This document shows positions 19,139 to 25,883 of a stretch of DNA of 40,229 bases, piece after piece (positions within the stretch are counted from its first letter, which is position 1; the number at the start of each line of letters is the position of its first letter). This DNA comes from Mycobacterium sp. (GTDB lineage: Bacteria > Actinomycetota > Actinomycetes > Mycobacteriales > Mycobacteriaceae), in contig JAGQTU010000034.1 in assembly GCA_020438865.1 (NCBI GenBank), positions 1 through 40,229 on the forward strand, given 5' to 3'. A model generated the notes under the pieces. It was not told the origin of the DNA. It was given only the letters and a program-made list of their open reading frames with translations, and did no database searches. The position numbers were made by a program, and so were the translations under genes.

Positions 19139-22100
19139 TCACACGTCGCGGTCGTCGGCGCCCGAGAGGGCCAGGAACGCCCCCAACTCCACCAACCCGG
19201 CCGGCGTGGCAGGCAGGTACTCGGTCAGCGCCGCCGAGCGCACGATCACCGCGGCGTACTTGGCCCGGCTCACCGCGACGTTGAGCCGATTGCGGTTGAG
19301 CAGGAACGAGATTCCGCGCGGCACGTCGTCGATCGAGGACGCCACCATCGAGACGAACACCACCGGCGCCTGCCGGCCCTGGAACTTGTCGACCGTCCCG
19401 GTCTGCACCCCGTGCAGCCCGGCCCCGTCGAGCAGGTGGCGCAGCAGCACGACTTGGGCGTTGTACGGGGTGACGACCAGGACGTCGGAGGCGTTCAACG
19501 GCCGGGTGCCGTGCTCGTCGGTCCACGCCGCGCCGAGCAGTCCGGTGATCGCGGCCACGATCGCGACCGCTTCCTCGGGGCTCTCGGTCGAGTTTCCGTC
19601 GTGGTCGACGGCCAGCACGTGCACGCCGGGCTCGAAACCGTCGAGCCGCCGTGCCGCCGTCGTCTCGGACACCGACTGCAGCCGTCCGTCGTAGGACAGC
19701 CGCGACACCGCCGCGCACACCGTCGGGTGCATCCGATAGGAGCGGTCCAGGAAATAGCCGAGCTCGTCGGGCAGGGTGTGCCGACCGTCGACCAGCCAGC
19801 CCAGCGCCGAGGCGTCGACAGGTTCGGGATGGTGGCCCTGGCTGACCTGGGGCAGCTGCTGCGGGTCGCCGAGCAACAGCAGATTGGCGGCCGCGGGAGC
19901 GACGGCGATGGTGTTGGCCAGGCAGAACTGCCCGGCCTCCTCGATCACCAGCAGGTCAAGGCTGCCGGGCGGAACCCGGTTCGCGTTCGCGAAATCCCAT
20001 GCGGTGCCGCCGACCACGCAGCCGTCATGCTCGTCGAGGAAGTCGGGGTAGGCCCCCTCGTCGATGTCGGTCCACGGGCCGGTGCCGTTGGGTTTCTTGG
20101 CCACCAGGGCCGGGTCGACGCCGGCCCCGATGACGTCGCGAAACAGGTTCTCCACCACGGCGTGTGACTGGGCGACGACGCCGATGCGCCAGCGGTGCTC
20201 GTTGACCAGCGCGGCGATCACCCGGGCGGCGGTGTGCGTCTTGCCGGTGCCGGGCGGGCCGTGCACCGCCAGGTAGGACGAATCCAGGGCCAGGACCGCG
20301 GCGGTGAGGTCCTCGACGCAGTCGTCGGTGCGGGGCAGCGGTGCGGGGCCGCGGGGCGGGCAGCGCAGCAGGATGTCGACGACCGCGGACGGTGGCAGCC
20401 CGGGCAACCCGGCCGCGATCTCGGCTGCGAAGACGTCGATCGACTGTCGCAGCGCCTTCGTCGGGAACGGGGCGCCCGGGGTCAGCGCGAAGGGTAGCTG
20501 CTGAAACATGCCGCCGTGCTTGGGTTCTCGGTGCATGACCAACACCTCGGTGGGGGAGGTGTCGTCGTCCCAGCCGATGACGCTGACCGCGCCGTAGGCC
20601 CGCCGTTCCGGGTCGTCGGACAACCCGGCCGGTGTCGGTGGGTCGTACAACGCGAACATGTCCCCGCTCAGCTCGCCGGCGGCCAGCGCACCGGTCAGCC
20701 GCACCCGGCGCTGTGGCTTCCTGGCGCCCTGCGGCACATGCCAGTCGGCGTCGACTGCGGCCTCGTCGGCCAGGAAAACCCCTGGCGCGTCTCCCCATTC
20801 GTCGACCGGGCTGTTGAGCCGGTCGAAGTGGCCCCACCAGAACGGCTTGTCCTCCCGGCGGTGATAGCCACGCGCGGCCGCGATCATCGCCACCGCGCGC
20901 TGTTCGGGGGTGCGGTCGTCGACGTCATCCCCCGCGAAGCGGGCCAGGTTCCGGGCCACGTCGTCATCCACCTCGACCTGGCCGGTGTCGCGGCCCGGCT
21001 GCGGGCCCAACGGCGGCACCCCGGACTCGATGGCGCGGCCCAACAGCCAGTCCCGCAGCCTGCGGGTGGACCGGCAGTCGTAGCGGTTGTAGTCCTCGAT
21101 CTCCTTGAGCACGTTGGCCGCCTCGTCATCGCGGCCCTCGGCGCGCAACTGGGTGTACCGGGCATACATGGTGATCGAGTCGGTGGCGGTGGTGACGTCA
21201 CCGGCGCGCAGTTCCGAACCCATGTACAGCGGTTCGAGCGACTTGAGGCTGTAGTTCTCGGTGCCGACCCGAATGCTCTTGCGCACCAAGGGGAAGAGGT
21301 CCACCAGCACGCCGTCGCGTAGCAGGTCGTCGACCTCGTCCTCGCCCACCCCGTAGCGGCCCGCCAGCCGCAGCAGCGCGGTCTTCTCGTAGGCGGCGTA
21401 GTGGTAGATGTGCATCTTCGGGTGGCGCTTGCGCCGCTTGCGCACCATCGCCAGGAAGTCCACCAGCGCCTTGCGTTCGGCCGCGCGGTCGTGCGCCCAC
21501 AGCGGCGTGAAGTCGTCCTTGGCACCGAGAACACCGAACATGTACTCCAGGCCCCACTCCCGGCCGTCGGCCGTCCAGAGCGGGTCACCCTCGAAGTCGA
21601 AGAACAGGTCGCCCTTGTCCGGGTCGGGCAGCAGCATCAACGGCTGGGCGTCGACCACCTCGTAGGGCGGCTTGCCGTCCGCCCGCGGCGCGATCTGCAG
21701 CGCTGCCTGCCGGGTGAGCGCGGTGGCGGTGCGGGCAGGCAGGCCGGGCACCGGGCCGTCGTGGCGGGCCAACTCGGTGAGCGTCGAGATGCCGGCATCG
21801 ATGAGCCGGGCCCGCTGGGTCACCCGCATGTTGGCGACCAACAGCAGGTCATCATGGGCGCGGACCTGAATCTGGCATTCCGGGCAGCGCATACAGGCCC
21901 GCACGGTGTCGTCGCCCCAGCTGACCGCGGCCCCCCCGGCGTAATGCCGGTCGAGCAGATCCTGCAGGTCGGCGCGCCGGGACCGGTACACCGGCAGCAG
22001 CTCGTCGGCGCGGTAGGCCATCGTGGTGCCGTTGCCCAGCACCAGCTCGACCTCGTCGTGCACGTCGACGCCGGCCGCGGCCAGGGTCTCGGCGTAGGCC

Positions 22101-22534
22101 GCCAGCTGCAGCAGGGCCTCGACCTTGACCGAGCGGGCCAGCTTGGTGTCGCGCAACCGGTAGCGGTCCCCGTCGAGCAGCAGGAAATCGGCGAAACCGA
22201 CGAATCGGCCGTCGAACATCGCGGCCTGGTACACCACCGGCCTCCGTTGCTCGACCGCCCGCAGGGTGGCCTCGGCGGCGGCGGTCAGCCCCGCCACCGT
22301 GTACGCCGGCCTGCCGATGATCGCGACGTCGGTTCGCGAACGCAGCTCGTCGAGGTGGCGCTGCTCGTGGCCGCCGCCGAGTTCGGCGGTCCGGGCGAGC
22401 AGTTCGTCGGAGGCGGCCACTGCCGGGCCCCGGCCGAGGCGGGCGTCGAAGGAGCGCAGCAGGGCATACTCGCAGCGCGCTGCGGCCGCCAGGTCGGAGG
22501 CGCTGTAGATGACCCGATCGTCGACGACGAACAC
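19139..22534 (-). CDS. RecB-like nuclease / DnaQ-like exonuclease / SF1 helicase fusion (Rv1251c-like)
   Basis: An 1131-residue protein. Residues 1-225 are a RecB-type PD-(D/E)XK nuclease: Asp116, Asp129-Thr-Lys131 and the QxxxY motif (Gln143, Tyr147). Cys21 plus Cys214, Cys217 and Cys220 could bind an Fe-S cluster as in Dna2 or AddB. Residues 305-500 look like an RNase H/DnaQ exonuclease: FFDFEGDP (Asp313, Glu315), HIYHYAAYEK and YNRYD (Asp486). Residues 735-1105 are an SF1B helicase: GPPGTGKT (759-766), motif II IEEAGQ (864-869), GDPQQLPQ, TVDKFQG (1047-1053) and LNVAVSRAK (1084-1092). The likely role is DNA or RNA repair or processing. The GTG at 22534 follows TACAGT by 7 nt. It lies 36 bp after the GGDEF-EAL gene on the same strand. 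Confidence 0.9.
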   Translation of the reverse strand: MFVVDDRVIYSASDLAAAARCEYALLRSFDARLGRGPAVAASDELLARTAELGGGHEQRHLDELRSRTDVAIIGRPAYTVAGLTAAAEATLRAVEQRRPVVYQAAMFDGRFVGFADFLLLDGDRYRLRDTKLARSVKVEALLQLAAYAETLAAAGVDVHDEVELVLGNGTTMAYRADELLPVYRSRRADLQDLLDRHYAGGAAVSWGDDTVRACMRCPECQIQVRAHDDLLLVANMRVTQRARLIDAGISTLTELARHDGPVPGLPARTATALTRQAALQIAPRADGKPPYEVVDAQPLMLLPDPDKGDLFFDFEGDPLWTADGREWGLEYMFGVLGAKDDFTPLWAHDRAAERKALVDFLAMVRKRRKRHPKMHIYHYAAYEKTALLRLAGRYGVGEDEVDDLLRDGVLVDLFPLVRKSIRVGTENYSLKSLEPLYMGSELRAGDVTTATDSITMYARYTQLRAEGRDDEAANVLKEIEDYNRYDCRSTRRLRDWLLGRAIESGVPPLGPQPGRDTGQVEVDDDVARNLARFAGDDVDDRTPEQRAVAMIAAARGYHRREDKPFWWGHFDRLNSPVDEWGDAPGVFLADEAAVDADWHVPQGARKPQRRVRLTGALAAGELSGDMFALYDPPTPAGLSDDPERRAYGAVSVIGWDDDTSPTEVLVMHREPKHGGMFQQLPFALTPGAPFPTKALRQSIDVFAAEIAAGLPGLPPSAVVDILLRCPPRGPAPLPRTDDCVEDLTAAVLALDSSYLAVHGPPGTGKTHTAARVIAALVNEHRWRIGVVAQSHAVVENLFRDVIGAGVDPALVAKKPNGTGPWTDIDEGAYPDFLDEHDGCVVGGTAWDFANANRVPPGSLDLLVIEEAGQFCLANTIAVAPAAANLLLLGDPQQLPQVSQGHHPEPVDASALGWLVDGRHTLPDELGYFLDRSYRMHPTVCAAVSRLSYDGRLQSVSETTAARRLDGFEPGVHVLAVDHDGNSTESPEEAVAIVAAITGLLGAAWTDEHGTRPLNASDVLVVTPYNAQVVLLRHLLDGAGLHGVQTGTVDKFQGRQAPVVFVSMVASSIDDVPRGISFLLNRNRLNVAVSRAKYAAVIVRSAALTEYLPATPAGLVELGAFLALSGADDRDV

Positions 22535-22570: not shown

Positions 22571-24586
22571 TCAGGAATCGACGGTCGGCAGCGGTGCCGC
22601 GAGGGGCCGCGCGATGAGGGCCTCGAAGTGTTCGGCGGGCAGCGGCGGGGAGAAGAAATTGCCCTGGTAATAGTTGCAGCCCAATTCGAGGAGCCGGGCG
22701 ATCTCATCCTCCGATTCGGTGCCCTCCGCGATGACCTCCATGCCGAGGCTGCGCGCGAGCACCACGATGGTCCGCACGATCTGCAGGCTCTCCATGTGGG
22801 TTTCCATCCGCGAGATAAATGACCGGTCGATCTTGAGCACCTGCAGCGGGAAGCGGTGCAGATAGCTCAGGCAGGAGAAGCCGGTGCCGAAGTCGTCGAC
22901 GCTGACACCCACGCCGAGTTCGACCAGGCGGGTCAGCGTATCGGCGGCGTACTCCGCATCGTCCATCGTCATCGTCTCGGTGATCTCCAGGCGCAACAGT
23001 TCTGGTGGCAGATCGGTTTCGGCCAGCACCGCACGGACCTGCTCCACCAGGTCCGGCTGGGCGAACTGGCGCGCCGAGATGTTCACGCTGACGGGCAGTG
23101 CGTGGCCGTCCCGGCCGGTGTTCCAGCGGTGCGCCGCCAGGCAGGCCTCACGGAGCACCCACAAGCCCAGCGGGACGATCAGCCCGGTCTCCTCGGCCGC
23201 CGGGATGAACTCGTCCGGATAGCGAAGCGTGTCCGGCGACGTTCGCCAGCGCACCAGGGCTTCCGCGCCGACGATGTCGCTGTCGGCCACCGAGACGATC
23301 GGCTGGTAGTGCAGTTCGAACTTCTGGTCGCGTACCGCCGCCTGCAGATCGCTCAGCAGATCGAGTCGGCGGGTCGCCGAGGCCTGCATGGTGGCGTCGT
23401 ACAACTCACAGCGGGCTTTGCCCCTGGCCTTCGCCTGGTACATCGCCATGTCAGCGTGGCGTACCAGCTCGTCACCGGAGTCCAGTGCGGAGGAACTCAT
23501 CGCGATCCCGATGCTGGCGCTGGTCACCACCTCGTGTCCCTCTATTTGAAACGGGTTGCGTAGCAGGGCCTGTATCGAGTCGGCGGCAGCAACCGCATCC
23601 CGTGCGCTGTGGATGCCGCGCACCAGTATGGTGAACTCGTCACCGCCCATTCGGGCTAGTAGTGCGTTGCCGTCACCCGTAACTTCGCCGCGCTGGATCG
23701 ACTCGTGCAGCCGCGCACCAACCTGGGTGACCAGAACGTCTCCGGCGGCGTGTCCCAGGCTGTCGTTGACGATCTTGAACCGGTCGAGATCGACGAACAG
23801 CACGCAAAAGCCCCTGTCGTTGTCGTTGTCCAGTGCGTACTCGCGGCAGGCTTGGTCCACCTCGCGCAGGAAGTGGGAGCGGTTCGGCAGGCCCGTCAAC
23901 GGGTCGTGCAGCGAGTCGTGCAGCCGGCTCGTGGCGCGGTCGCGCTCGATCAACCGACCGAGCTGGGTACCCGCCTGCCCGAGCATCGTCAGCAGCACAG
24001 GGTCTTTCGGCATCGGGTTCGGGCTGAAGAACTCCAGCGCGGCAACCACTTCGGATCCGATCAGCAACGGGGTGCTGAAGGCGGACCGCAGACCCGATTG
24101 CAGCGCGACCTGTGCGCGAAGGAAGTAGGAGGCACTGAGAATCTCCTCCTCCCAGAACGGCTCTCCTGATGCCCATACCTTTCCGGGCAGTCCCTCATCC
24201 GAGGCGAACACCATCCTCGCTGTGGCGTCCATGAACTGCGAAAGGTCCAGGGCCGGATCGCAGTACCAGATGTTCGACGGCCACATCCGTCGTGCCTCGC
24301 CCTCACCGGCGACGATGAATGCGTGTGCCGCCGACCAGCCGGTAAAGCCGCACATGTACTCCAGAGCCGATGCCACCACCTCCTGCACGGATCCGCCCTG
24401 GTTCGCCATGATTGTGATCTGGGAAAGGAACTCCAGTTCCTGCTGCTTTTGGTACAAGTCGCGGAGACCCTGTTCGGCGATCTCCTCGGCCTTACGGCGG
24501 ATCTGCCGCTCTCGCTCGAGTCGACGGTTCAGCACCCTGTTCTCGTCGGCCAGCGCGGCGGCCTGGTCCCAGTGCTCGTCGGTCAT
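22571..24586 (-). CDS. GAF-GGDEF-EAL cyclic-di-GMP enzyme, partner of the H-NOX protein
   Basis: A 671-residue cytosolic protein that may make and/or break c-di-GMP. Residues about 10-55 form a charged coiled coil, 60-215 a GAF-like domain (FTGWSAAHAFIV, GLPGKVWASGEPFW), 222-395 GGDEF and 405-665 EAL. GGDEF is intact at 314-318, but the RxxD inhibitory site normally just upstream is missing. EAL (442-444) and other catalytic residues are intact: Asn502, EITE, DDFGTG, KIDRSF, EGTES and QG, so both activities are possible. I chose the ATG at 24586, 8 nt after the H-NOX stop and preceded by GTGAGG; the frame continues to 24646 inside the H-NOX gene. Counted lines have lower GC than the neighbouring genes. 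Confidence 0.94.
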   Translation of the reverse strand: MTDEHWDQAAALADENRVLNRRLERERQIRRKAEEIAEQGLRDLYQKQQELEFLSQITIMANQGGSVQEVVASALEYMCGFTGWSAAHAFIVAGEGEARRMWPSNIWYCDPALDLSQFMDATARMVFASDEGLPGKVWASGEPFWEEEILSASYFLRAQVALQSGLRSAFSTPLLIGSEVVAALEFFSPNPMPKDPVLLTMLGQAGTQLGRLIERDRATSRLHDSLHDPLTGLPNRSHFLREVDQACREYALDNDNDRGFCVLFVDLDRFKIVNDSLGHAAGDVLVTQVGARLHESIQRGEVTGDGNALLARMGGDEFTILVRGIHSARDAVAAADSIQALLRNPFQIEGHEVVTSASIGIAMSSSALDSGDELVRHADMAMYQAKARGKARCELYDATMQASATRRLDLLSDLQAAVRDQKFELHYQPIVSVADSDIVGAEALVRWRTSPDTLRYPDEFIPAAEETGLIVPLGLWVLREACLAAHRWNTGRDGHALPVSVNISARQFAQPDLVEQVRAVLAETDLPPELLRLEITETMTMDDAEYAADTLTRLVELGVGVSVDDFGTGFSCLSYLHRFPLQVLKIDRSFISRMETHMESLQIVRTIVVLARSLGMEVIAEGTESEDEIARLLELGCNYYQGNFFSPPLPAEHFEALIARPLAAPLPTVDS

Positions 24587-24594
24587 CCTCACGC

Positions 24595-25131
24595 CTATGC
24601 CGCGCACACCTCGACCAGGCAACGCGGATCCCCGTGGTGCATGCATTCCAGATGCCGCACGGTGAGCGCTTCGCCGTAGTGGTCGCCGACGCCGAGAATG
24701 AAGCCGTGCGCGAGGCCACAGAGCTGTCGTGGTGAGCGATAGCCGATCAGCAGCGAACCGTCCGGCGGCGACGTGAATTCGAAGTGGGGGCAGTAGGCCC
24801 CGGCGTAGAGCTTGCGTACCTCGGGGTGAATGACGCTGTTGAGGCTGCGGAGGAATGGCACCGAGCCCTGGTGGGCGGTGAAGAAGTCGGGCCAGCGTTC
24901 CACCATCTTGGGAATCGCCCGGTGGCCGAACCAGCGCAGGACCTCGTCATCCGAAAGCGACAGAGCCGTTCCCGCCGCCCGCACCAGCGCCATCATCTCG
25001 TCGTCGTCGTAACTGCCCAGGGAGGTGTAGACGCCGTCGACGCGGGCGTCATCGAGCAGGTCCTCCCAGGCGGCGCTCCCGTGGGTGTTGACCACCACTT
25101 CCTCGAGCAGATTGAAGATGACGCCCTTCAC
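24595..25131 (-). CDS. H-NOX (HNOB) haem-based nitric oxide sensor
   Basis: A 178-residue stand-alone H-NOX domain, the bacterial relative of the soluble guanylate cyclase haem domain. Starting at the GTG at 25131 (AGGAGG 5 nt upstream), the numbering matches classical H-NOX exactly: proximal His102, Pro115 and haem-propionate motif Tyr131-x-Ser133-x-Arg135. Position 140 is Leu, and 9 and 74 are Leu and Pro. The distal Tyr that stabilises O2 in clostridial-type H-NOX is therefore missing, which predicts NO over O2. Cys138, His160, Cys163 and Cys171 fit, shifted by one, the zinc site I recall from Shewanella/Vibrio H-NOX. The next gene is a GGDEF-EAL enzyme, the usual partner in other phyla. 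The open frame up to 25212 is not family-like. Confidence 0.93.
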   Translation of the reverse strand: MKGVIFNLLEEVVVNTHGSAAWEDLLDDARVDGVYTSLGSYDDDEMMALVRAAGTALSLSDDEVLRWFGHRAIPKMVERWPDFFTAHQGSVPFLRSLNSVIHPEVRKLYAGAYCPHFEFTSPPDGSLLIGYRSPRQLCGLAHGFILGVGDHYGEALTVRHLECMHHGDPRCLVEVCAA

Positions 25132-25273
25132 GGTCCCTCCTAACGGGGGCGATGTTCGCGCGGGTCGCTGCATCGTCGCATTCCAGGGCGGAGCACAACG
25201 TGATTTGAGCAATTTCTCAAGTCGTCGAACCGCACCGCAATCTGCGGCTGAGCGACCTCGCGTCCCACCGGGA
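25132..25273 (-). promoter_or_regulatory. Promoter region of the H-NOX operon
   Basis: A 142-bp gap between the H-NOX start and the lprE stop. On the minus strand TTGAGA, within the palindrome at 25205-25220, can be a -35 box. A weak TGTGCT lies 17 bp downstream as a possible -10. The leader would be about 60 nt and ends with AGGAGG. No other gene is seen. Confidence 0.4.
25205..25220. promoter_or_regulatory. Imperfect 16-bp palindrome, candidate operator of the H-NOX operon
   Basis: TTGAGCAATTTCTCAA matches its own reverse complement at 14 of 16 positions and is centred on AATT in otherwise GC-rich DNA. It lies 74-89 bp upstream of the H-NOX start and overlaps the proposed -35 box. The regulator is unknown and no regulator gene is adjacent. 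Confidence 0.5.
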
Positions 25274-25849
25274 TCAGGCGTTGCCGATCAGTTCGACGCC
25301 GTTGCCGTTCCAGTGGAATCGGACCACGCTCTGCAGACCCAGGCCGCCGGCGTAGGCCAGTGCGACGGTGTCACCGGTGCTCTGGGCGGCGTCGATCCCG
25401 TTGAAGCCGTAGGTGTCCGGGACGCCAGTGGGAATGTACTTGCCCAGGTGGAACATCACCGCCCGGGTGTTCGGGTTCGCCGCGTTGGTGTTGGCCTTGA
25501 CGATGACCGCCGACAGCTGTGCGCATTCGTTGTAATTGCCGGCCACCGGTTCGGGATTCCAGCCCTGTCCGCTGCGCGGGTCACGCGGGAGTTCGGAGAC
25601 GGCCTGCGCGATCGCCGGTGCCGCCAGGTTGACCGCGCACGGGTCCGGGGGCGGGGGACTGGGCGGCGGGGGTGGCGCCGCGGACGGTGAACCGGTCACC
25701 GAGGACGCGGCCGCGCTGGTGGTACTGGCCTGCGGGGTCTTGGCCACCGTCGAGTCGCCCGAACTGCAGCCGGCGAGCAGCACACCCACTGCCACGCCCA
25801 CCGCCGGGCCCGCTAGCCGATGCCACACACCGGTGCACGGTACCGTCAT
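25274..25849 (-). CDS. lprE: Lipoprotein LprE
   Basis: A 191-residue exported lipoprotein directly upstream of and divergent from deaD, as Rv1252c is in M. tuberculosis. The signal peptide ends LLAGC with Cys28 as the lipidation site. A Ser/Thr/Ala then Pro-rich linker (PPPPPSPPPPDP) leads to a folded domain containing DPCAVNLAAPAIAQAV, NYNECAQLSAVIVKAN and a C-terminal VVRFHWNGNGVELIG. The two domain cysteines probably form a disulphide outside the membrane. The start is the ATG at 25849; a GTG at 25873 would lengthen the signal peptide by eight residues. The mature function is not known to me. Confidence 0.87.
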   Translation of the reverse strand: MTVPCTGVWHRLAGPAVGVAVGVLLAGCSSGDSTVAKTPQASTTSAAASSVTGSPSAAPPPPPSPPPPDPCAVNLAAPAIAQAVSELPRDPRSGQGWNPEPVAGNYNECAQLSAVIVKANTNAANPNTRAVMFHLGKYIPTGVPDTYGFNGIDAAQSTGDTVALAYAGGLGLQSVVRFHWNGNGVELIGNA

Positions 25850-25883
25850 CGGCGCACAAGCAGGTGAGGGCACGCGCTGGCAC

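Follow-up and report, generated by a model that had tools for sequence, protein, structure and literature searches.

A mycobacterial H-NOX/GGDEF-EAL gene pair and a candidate H-NOX docking helix

In the bacterial species studied so far, H-NOX proteins regulate adjacent enzymes or kinases (PMC8738867). According to this 2022 review, a high-resolution structure was lacking for any complex of an H-NOX and its signaling partner, and no putative nitric oxide (NO)-sensing H-NOX had been reported from a Gram-positive species. Its sequence network lists Mycobacteriaceae in group 3, the legend of a neighborhood figure lists GGDEF, EAL, and DEAD-helicase families, and a Mycobacterium sp. H-NOX was also placed in "group 3" by PMC7108781. 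Here, a stretch of 40,229 nt from Mycobacterium sp. (contig JAGQTU010000034.1, positions 1 to 40,229; hereafter, the window) was analyzed, in which an H-NOX gene is followed by a gene for a GAF-GGDEF-EAL protein, a predicted enzyme of cyclic di-GMP (c-di-GMP) turnover. The pair is genuine and conserved and belongs to a known kind, H-NOX with a c-di-GMP enzyme; for its host lineage, no paper describing it was found in the open-licence literature among the matches listed. An earlier sequence-only reading of this DNA knew of no described mycobacterial example; Mycobacteriaceae H-NOX as such are already present in the network of PMC8738867.

We propose, with a probability of about 0.7, that the pair forms one two-protein sensor, in which H-NOX would dock on an N-terminal helix of the enzyme, named CC45 here, and act through the GAF domain on c-di-GMP turnover. 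In this scheme, H-NOX would hold heme on His102 and probably zinc on C138, H160, C163, and C171, and it would dock on the long CC45 helix of the GAF-GGDEF-EAL protein. A change in the state of H-NOX (NO bound to the heme, oxidized zinc cysteines, or a combination of the two) would alter its grip on CC45, and the GAF domain would relay this change to the synthesis of c-di-GMP, its breakdown, or both. If the pair behaves like most of those studied, activated H-NOX would lower c-di-GMP. Conservation of the pairing, together with the N-terminal helix that the partners share, lends good support to the coupling of H-NOX to a c-di-GMP enzyme. Docking and the path through the GAF domain are inferred from what was observed directly, namely, the gene content, the residues, the co-occurrence, the conservation, and the predicted helix.

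The gene pair and the CC45 helix

Both genes were found on the minus strand and in the order given by the sequence-only reading, a stand-alone H-NOX gene followed after 8 nt by the GAF-GGDEF-EAL gene. The H-NOX gene (24595..25131; 178 aa, GTG start at 25131, stop ending at 24595) is preceded by AGGAGGG (25135..25141, minus strand), a likely ribosome-binding site, and its product matched HNOB (PF07700) with 120.7 bits (cut-off, 25.5) over profile positions 1 to 163 of 163. The enzyme gene (22571..24586; 671 aa, ATG at 24586, stop ending at 22571) could also start at an in-frame GTG (24592) or ATG (24646). Its GAF domain (residues 66 to 214; 23945..24391; GAF_2, 40.6 bits), GGDEF domain (23414..23911; 129.8 bits), and EAL domain (22643..23350; 234.1 bits), all on the minus strand, exceeded the Pfam cut-offs. 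As had been read before, both catalytic motifs are intact and the inhibitory RxxD is absent, the I-site position being DxxA. The GGDEF motif was intact in 52 of the 58 aligned partners as well as in the window, and each of the 11 EAL positions examined was kept in all 58; the GGDEF and EAL residues chosen are those that we take to be catalytic. A Foldseek search with the AlphaFold2 model of the enzyme (mean predicted local distance difference test [pLDDT] score, 91.4; predicted template modeling [pTM] score, 0.62) gave GGDEF/EAL proteins as the best 50 of 1645 matches. By adjacency, domains, and catalytic residues, the enzyme fits the H-NOX-associated c-di-GMP enzymes (HaCE), and its regulation by H-NOX is predicted.

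The window genome yielded 19 GGDEF matches, of which one scored under the family cut-off and one or more were partial, so that the pair is one c-di-GMP input among many. Five related genomes had 14 to 25 such matches each. Counts of 14 to 25 per genome (G000, G240, G294, G098, G283, and G267) are many for mycobacteria; Mycobacterium tuberculosis has very few GGDEF proteins.

Ahead of the GAF domain lies CC45, a segment of ~45 residues (residues 12 to 56; 24419..24553, minus strand) that sits within one predicted helix (residues 3 to 63 of the AlphaFold2 model) and over which the Pfam scan of the enzyme found no family. Its consensus is of the type RERxARxEAExIAExGLRxLY. Across the 58 partners, the mean column identity of the CC45 core (residues 19 to 47) was 0.749, whereas GAF, GGDEF, and EAL reached 0.523, 0.564, and 0.621, respectively. 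In a ranking of 643 segments of equal length, the core took place 28, with segments near the EAL active site ahead of it. Judged from this conservation, the predicted helix, and its co-occurrence with H-NOX, CC45 may be the docking helix for H-NOX, a role newly proposed here.

The co-occurrence was assessed at loci selected on H-NOX alone. In the best 80 of 144 confirmed relatives, CC45 was present in the downstream open reading frame (ORF) of all 80; 13 of these loci were of the mycobacterial kind used for training the CC45 model and 67 lay outside it, and 13 (L044 to L056) largely repeat genomes of the genus sample described below. The outputs were 60 GGDEF-EAL proteins, 8 HisKA kinases, 6 HisKA_3 kinases, 3 SpoIIE proteins, and 3 proteins in which no output domain was seen. 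Of 85 adjacent partners that did not belong to the training group (L204 among them, which shows the L067 pair a second time), 81 scored at least 8 bits with the model of the mycobacterial helix, versus 1 of 65 nonadjacent signaling ORFs (L173). The four misses were L123, a fragment ORF in a locus whose other ORF has CC45, and L124, L125, and L210. CC45 was found in 0 of 33 signaling ORFs from 30 GGDEF loci away from H-NOX in the six related genomes.

Mycobacterial H-NOX form two clades, A with 15 loci (the 14 others are 65 to 92% identical to the window H-NOX) and B with 7 loci (~40%). In the genus sample of 396 genomes, CC45 was detected in 20 of the 22 H-NOX-positive genomes and, among the candidates scored, in 0 of the 374 H-NOX-negative genomes. 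Fifteen of the matches were strong and came from the clade A genomes, partly by construction, because 14 of these 15 clade A partners had served to build model A2. The other five were weak (22 to 29 bits), lay directly after a clade B H-NOX, and were independent of training. In the two H-NOX-positive genomes without a model match (G123 and G208), the motif was visible by eye. Each of 35 further genomes with this H-NOX had exactly one CC45, ~100 bp after H-NOX, as scored with model A5, which includes rows from 11 of the 35 and from G1128 (the genome of L067). Among 250 Alphaproteobacteria, four CC45 matches were obtained, all directly after an H-NOX; one was in the center genome, G1128, and three were weak and lay beside more distant H-NOX. 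At the class level, CC45 was present at 12 of 19 loci.

Heme and zinc residues and the input signal

The closest solved relatives of the window H-NOX are 4u99 and 2kii, both of them Shewanella oneidensis H-NOX (for 4u99, the species is taken from the legend of Fig. 9 in PMC12329717). Residues were counted in 97 aligned H-NOX, which take in 8 of the 19 class-level loci, those closest to the window H-NOX. The proximal heme ligand His102 (codon 24826..24828, minus strand) and the YxSxR heme-propionate motif (residues 131 to 135, with Y131, S133, and R135; 24727..24741, minus strand) were kept in 97 of 97. The window H-NOX has the heme-ligand residues of its family, and heme binding is predicted. 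The distal Tyr is absent, a mark of NO-type H-NOX, which form no stable O2 complex: in its column, located by spacing from YxSxR and numbered in what we take to be Tt numbering, the window has L140, and all 97 H-NOX have L or F. Y140 is named as the distal Tyr position in PMC12329717. The predicted zinc ligands C138, H160, C163, and C171 (24619..24720, minus strand) are invariant in all 15 clade A H-NOX and correspond to Cys139, His161, Cys164, and Cys172 of S. oneidensis H-NOX (PMC7108781). Across the 97 H-NOX, the three cysteines were always kept and position 160 was H or Q in 96, and the window sequence has the three Cys plus His/Gln that characterize group-3 H-NOX. A fourth cysteine, C114, was present in 15 of 15 clade A H-NOX and 51 of 67 relatives, and in 0 of 7 clade B and 0 of 8 class-level H-NOX.

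The sequence-only reading took the pair for an NO-to-c-di-GMP switch that could govern dormancy or biofilm. The coupling of H-NOX to the enzyme was borne out, as set out above; NO as the input found only partial support. The heme-ligand residues are in place and the distal Tyr is missing, but the Cys3His zinc site is present too, and the one characterized group-3 H-NOX, that of Caulobacter, responded to oxidation of its cysteines and was not activated by NO. According to PMC12329717, no group-3 H-NOX had been characterized before this protein, which binds NO in a five-coordinate form without activation, whereas oxidation of its zinc-site cysteines makes it inhibit its kinase. Two inputs were thus weighed, and equal odds were given to them.

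In the first, NO on the heme iron would be the physiological input and would alter GGDEF-EAL activity, a tentative reading that we place slightly below an even chance. The proximal His, the YxSxR motif, and the L or F replacing the distal Tyr all argue for NO, as does the action of NO-bound H-NOX on diguanylate cyclase/phosphodiesterase (DGC/PDE) partners in Legionella pneumophila and Shewanella woodyi (PMC8738867 and PMC8846402). On the other side, NO does not activate the Caulobacter H-NOX, the characterized protein of this published group (PMC12329717), and no clear source of NO of their own was seen in six related genomes. NirK (TIGR02376) was above the cut-off in 0 of these 6, with weak matches below the cut-off in all 6. 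Cytochrome d1 (PF02239) was above the cut-off in 4 of 6, the best single match reaching 31.3 bits (56.2 bits when summed over neighbors in long frames); because these matches were weak and partial, NirS is neither shown nor excluded.

In the second, which likewise falls somewhat short of even odds, oxidation of the zinc-site cysteines would activate H-NOX, and the heme would be structural or secondary. The near-invariance of the zinc-site residues and the occurrence of C114 in clade A and most relatives point in this direction. Moreover, Caulobacter H-NOX behaves in this manner in vitro (PMC12329717), and heme-free Vibrio cholerae H-NOX does likewise (PMC7108781). Against this, the group-3 evidence comes from one tested protein, and C114, a possible counterpart of the fourth Cys of Caulobacter H-NOX, is missing from the clade B and class-level H-NOX.

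Outputs behind the helix and alternatives to docking

In clade A, the downstream gene started with the CC45 helix at 15 of 15 loci, and the outputs were GGDEF-EAL at six, a kinase with GAF and HisKA_3 at five, and a SpoIIE phosphatase at three, with one (L042) cut by the contig end. At each of the five kinase loci, a NarL-type response-regulator gene lies directly upstream of H-NOX (one is cut by a contig end). These loci (L023, L024, L025, L029, and L030) thus show a row of NarL-type response regulator, H-NOX, and GAF-GAF-HisKA_3 kinase, and the layout of the kinase is reminiscent of DosS. CC45 precedes a SpoIIE-type (PP2C-like) phosphatase in L033 (7553-9019), L036 (15184-17823), L037 (9478-12621), and L173 (2248-3723); in the open-licence literature, no report of SpoIIE as an H-NOX output was found among the matches listed. 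The L033 partner keeps the CC45 helix, and its GAF domain aligns poorly with those of the other partners.

In clade B, a PAS-HisKA-HATPase-REC-Hpt kinase was located upstream of H-NOX in 7 of 7 loci. Downstream, also in 7 of 7 as judged by eye, a frame opens with a helix of this type, after which comes a stretch resembling a dimerization and histidine phosphotransfer (DHp) domain; two of these frames were scanned for HisKA, and one was above and one below the cut-off. The small downstream protein (L032, L034, L038, L039, L040, L041, and L043) seems to be without a kinase core. On plasmids of Vibrio and Pseudoalteromonas, short HnoK-like kinases next to H-NOX (five annotated partners read from 6 of 19 plasmid records) had a CC45-like start, with 4.5 to 13.7 bits over two models; the plasmid H-NOX were 31 to 35% identical to the window H-NOX. 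No ORF of the 173 loci or of the window was a natural fusion joining H-NOX to the helix-bearing protein. We lean toward the broader view that stand-alone bacterial H-NOX share one docking element, a CC45-type helix, on varied outputs (GGDEF-EAL, HisKA, HisKA_3, and mycobacterial SpoIIE), and that mycobacteria would have kept the sensor and the helix while swapping the output.

Several points weigh against docking on CC45. The genome-wide CC45 searches scored the best first-look candidates only (at most 18 per genome in the genus and 28 in the Alphaproteobacteria), so that "none" means none among the scored candidates, and weaker copies could be missed. Among the 38 H-NOX of the 35 further genomes, 3 (extra copies in two genomes) had no CC45 match, and neither did 7 of the 19 class-level loci (L124 to L129 and L139). 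The second copy in G211 (L173) is an orphan CC45-SpoIIE gene with no H-NOX on its 3.9-kb contig, and the resemblance to CC45 in the short HnoK-like kinases is weak. In addition, CC45 may serve for dimerization and simply accompany H-NOX.

In the last case, CC45 would be the dimerization or signaling helix of the partner and H-NOX would bind elsewhere, for example, on the GAF domain, which we consider unlikely. Long helices that precede a GAF domain frequently dimerize, and a GAF domain occurs in nearly all group partners. Hydrogen-deuterium exchange (HDX) and nuclear magnetic resonance (NMR) place the contact on both H-NOX subdomains, the site on the partner being unnamed in the passage (PMC8738867), which leaves room for such binding. 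However, L033 keeps the helix with a different GAF, the clade B and HnoK-like partners carry the helix without a GAF, and the helix is more conserved than the GAF domain. It is highly improbable that the two proteins are mere neighbors, with the enzyme driven by its own GAF ligand (as the GAF of Mycobacterium smegmatis DcpA responds to GDP [PMC8846402]) and H-NOX serving something else, since the two genes stay together in different phyla and even where the output has changed.

Distribution, insertion site, and comparison with known systems

Besides the 22 of 396 genomes of the genus, H-NOX was present in 3 of 401 genomes of the family (within 1 of 31 genera) and in 17 of 394 genomes of the class, three of which belong to the genus. 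The pair occupies the same site in six sampled mycobacterial genomes, the window included. Carriers of the GGDEF-EAL version are the metagenome-assembled genomes (MAGs) HKST-UBA43 and HKST-UBA42 and the isolate Mycobacterium sp. M26. In a tree of the 97 H-NOX (quick method, rooted on clade B), clade A was monophyletic (Shimodaira-Hasegawa-like approximate likelihood ratio test [SH-aLRT], 97) within a set of 68 rows (SH-aLRT, 97), the other 53 of which were all Pseudomonadota by their record titles. This nesting suggests lateral transfer of clade A H-NOX into mycobacteria, apparently from proteobacteria. Most of the pairs found are proteobacterial, not mycobacterial, in agreement with the earlier remark that such pairs are best known from proteobacteria. 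Two loci labeled Bifidobacterium breve (L050 and L051) have mycobacterial-type H-NOX operons, and these MAG labels look wrong.

The pair lies between an lprE-like lipoprotein gene (25274..25873, minus strand; Lipoprotein_21 [LppP/LprE]) and a helicase/nuclease-like gene (19139..22534, minus strand; AAA_12 and RNase_H_2), presumably Rv1251c-like, as the sequence-only reading had named it. That the pair is an insertion at this site was corroborated by flank-to-flank distances in relatives. The lprE-to-helicase gap was 2733 to 2793 nt in the six pair-bearing mycobacterial genomes (window, L026, L027, L028, L031, and L035). In 29 lprE loci of H-NOX-negative relatives, the same junction measured 34 to 128 nt in 17 and 344 to 924 nt in 5, and could not be resolved in 7. 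Both genes are under purifying selection, because the ratio of nonsynonymous to synonymous divergence (dN/dS) between the window and its nearest relative, L035, was 0.115 for H-NOX and 0.133 for the enzyme. In the same comparison, the flanking genes had dS values of 0.16 and 0.15, and the pair had 0.33 and 0.38, about twice as much. The upstream regions of L026, L027, L028, and L031 are alike, but those of the window and L035 differ, and a shared promoter motif was rejected. The promoter search gave no sigma-70 match, and the terminator search gave terminator-like matches at chance level only.

Being short, conserved, and found with H-NOX from genome to genome, the helix offers a concrete candidate docking site. 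The mycobacterial pairs could reveal which of the two, NO or oxidants, a zinc-site H-NOX senses, and if a single sensor module can drive c-di-GMP, phosphorelay, or phosphatase outputs. Among known mycobacterial proteins, M. smegmatis DcpA, with a full domain order that we take to be GAF-GGDEF-EAL, invites comparison. Like the window enzyme, it is a mycobacterial GAF-linked c-di-GMP enzyme (PMC8846402), a likeness drawn from its description. The H-NOX/HnoK systems of S. oneidensis and V. cholerae have a zinc-site H-NOX, as in the window; the CC45-like start was seen in the plasmid kinases of Vibrio and Pseudoalteromonas. Caulobacter crescentus H-NOX/HnoK shares with the window the published group 3 and the Cys3His zinc site, with His160 named (PMC12329717). 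By description, the output of Caulobacter HnoK is a kinase with a receiver domain, whereas that of the window is GGDEF-EAL; a relative in a Caulobacteraceae MAG (L103) has a CC45-GAF-HisKA-HATPase-REC partner. Finally, S. woodyi SWOO_2751/2750 and L. pneumophila LPG1056/1057 resemble the window in that a stand-alone H-NOX lies beside a DGC/PDE protein (PMC8738867, Table 1). Compared with these HaCE, whose partners were likened by description only, the window is distinguished by its mycobacterial host, by CC45-GAF before GGDEF-EAL, and by an H-NOX with a group-3-type zinc site.

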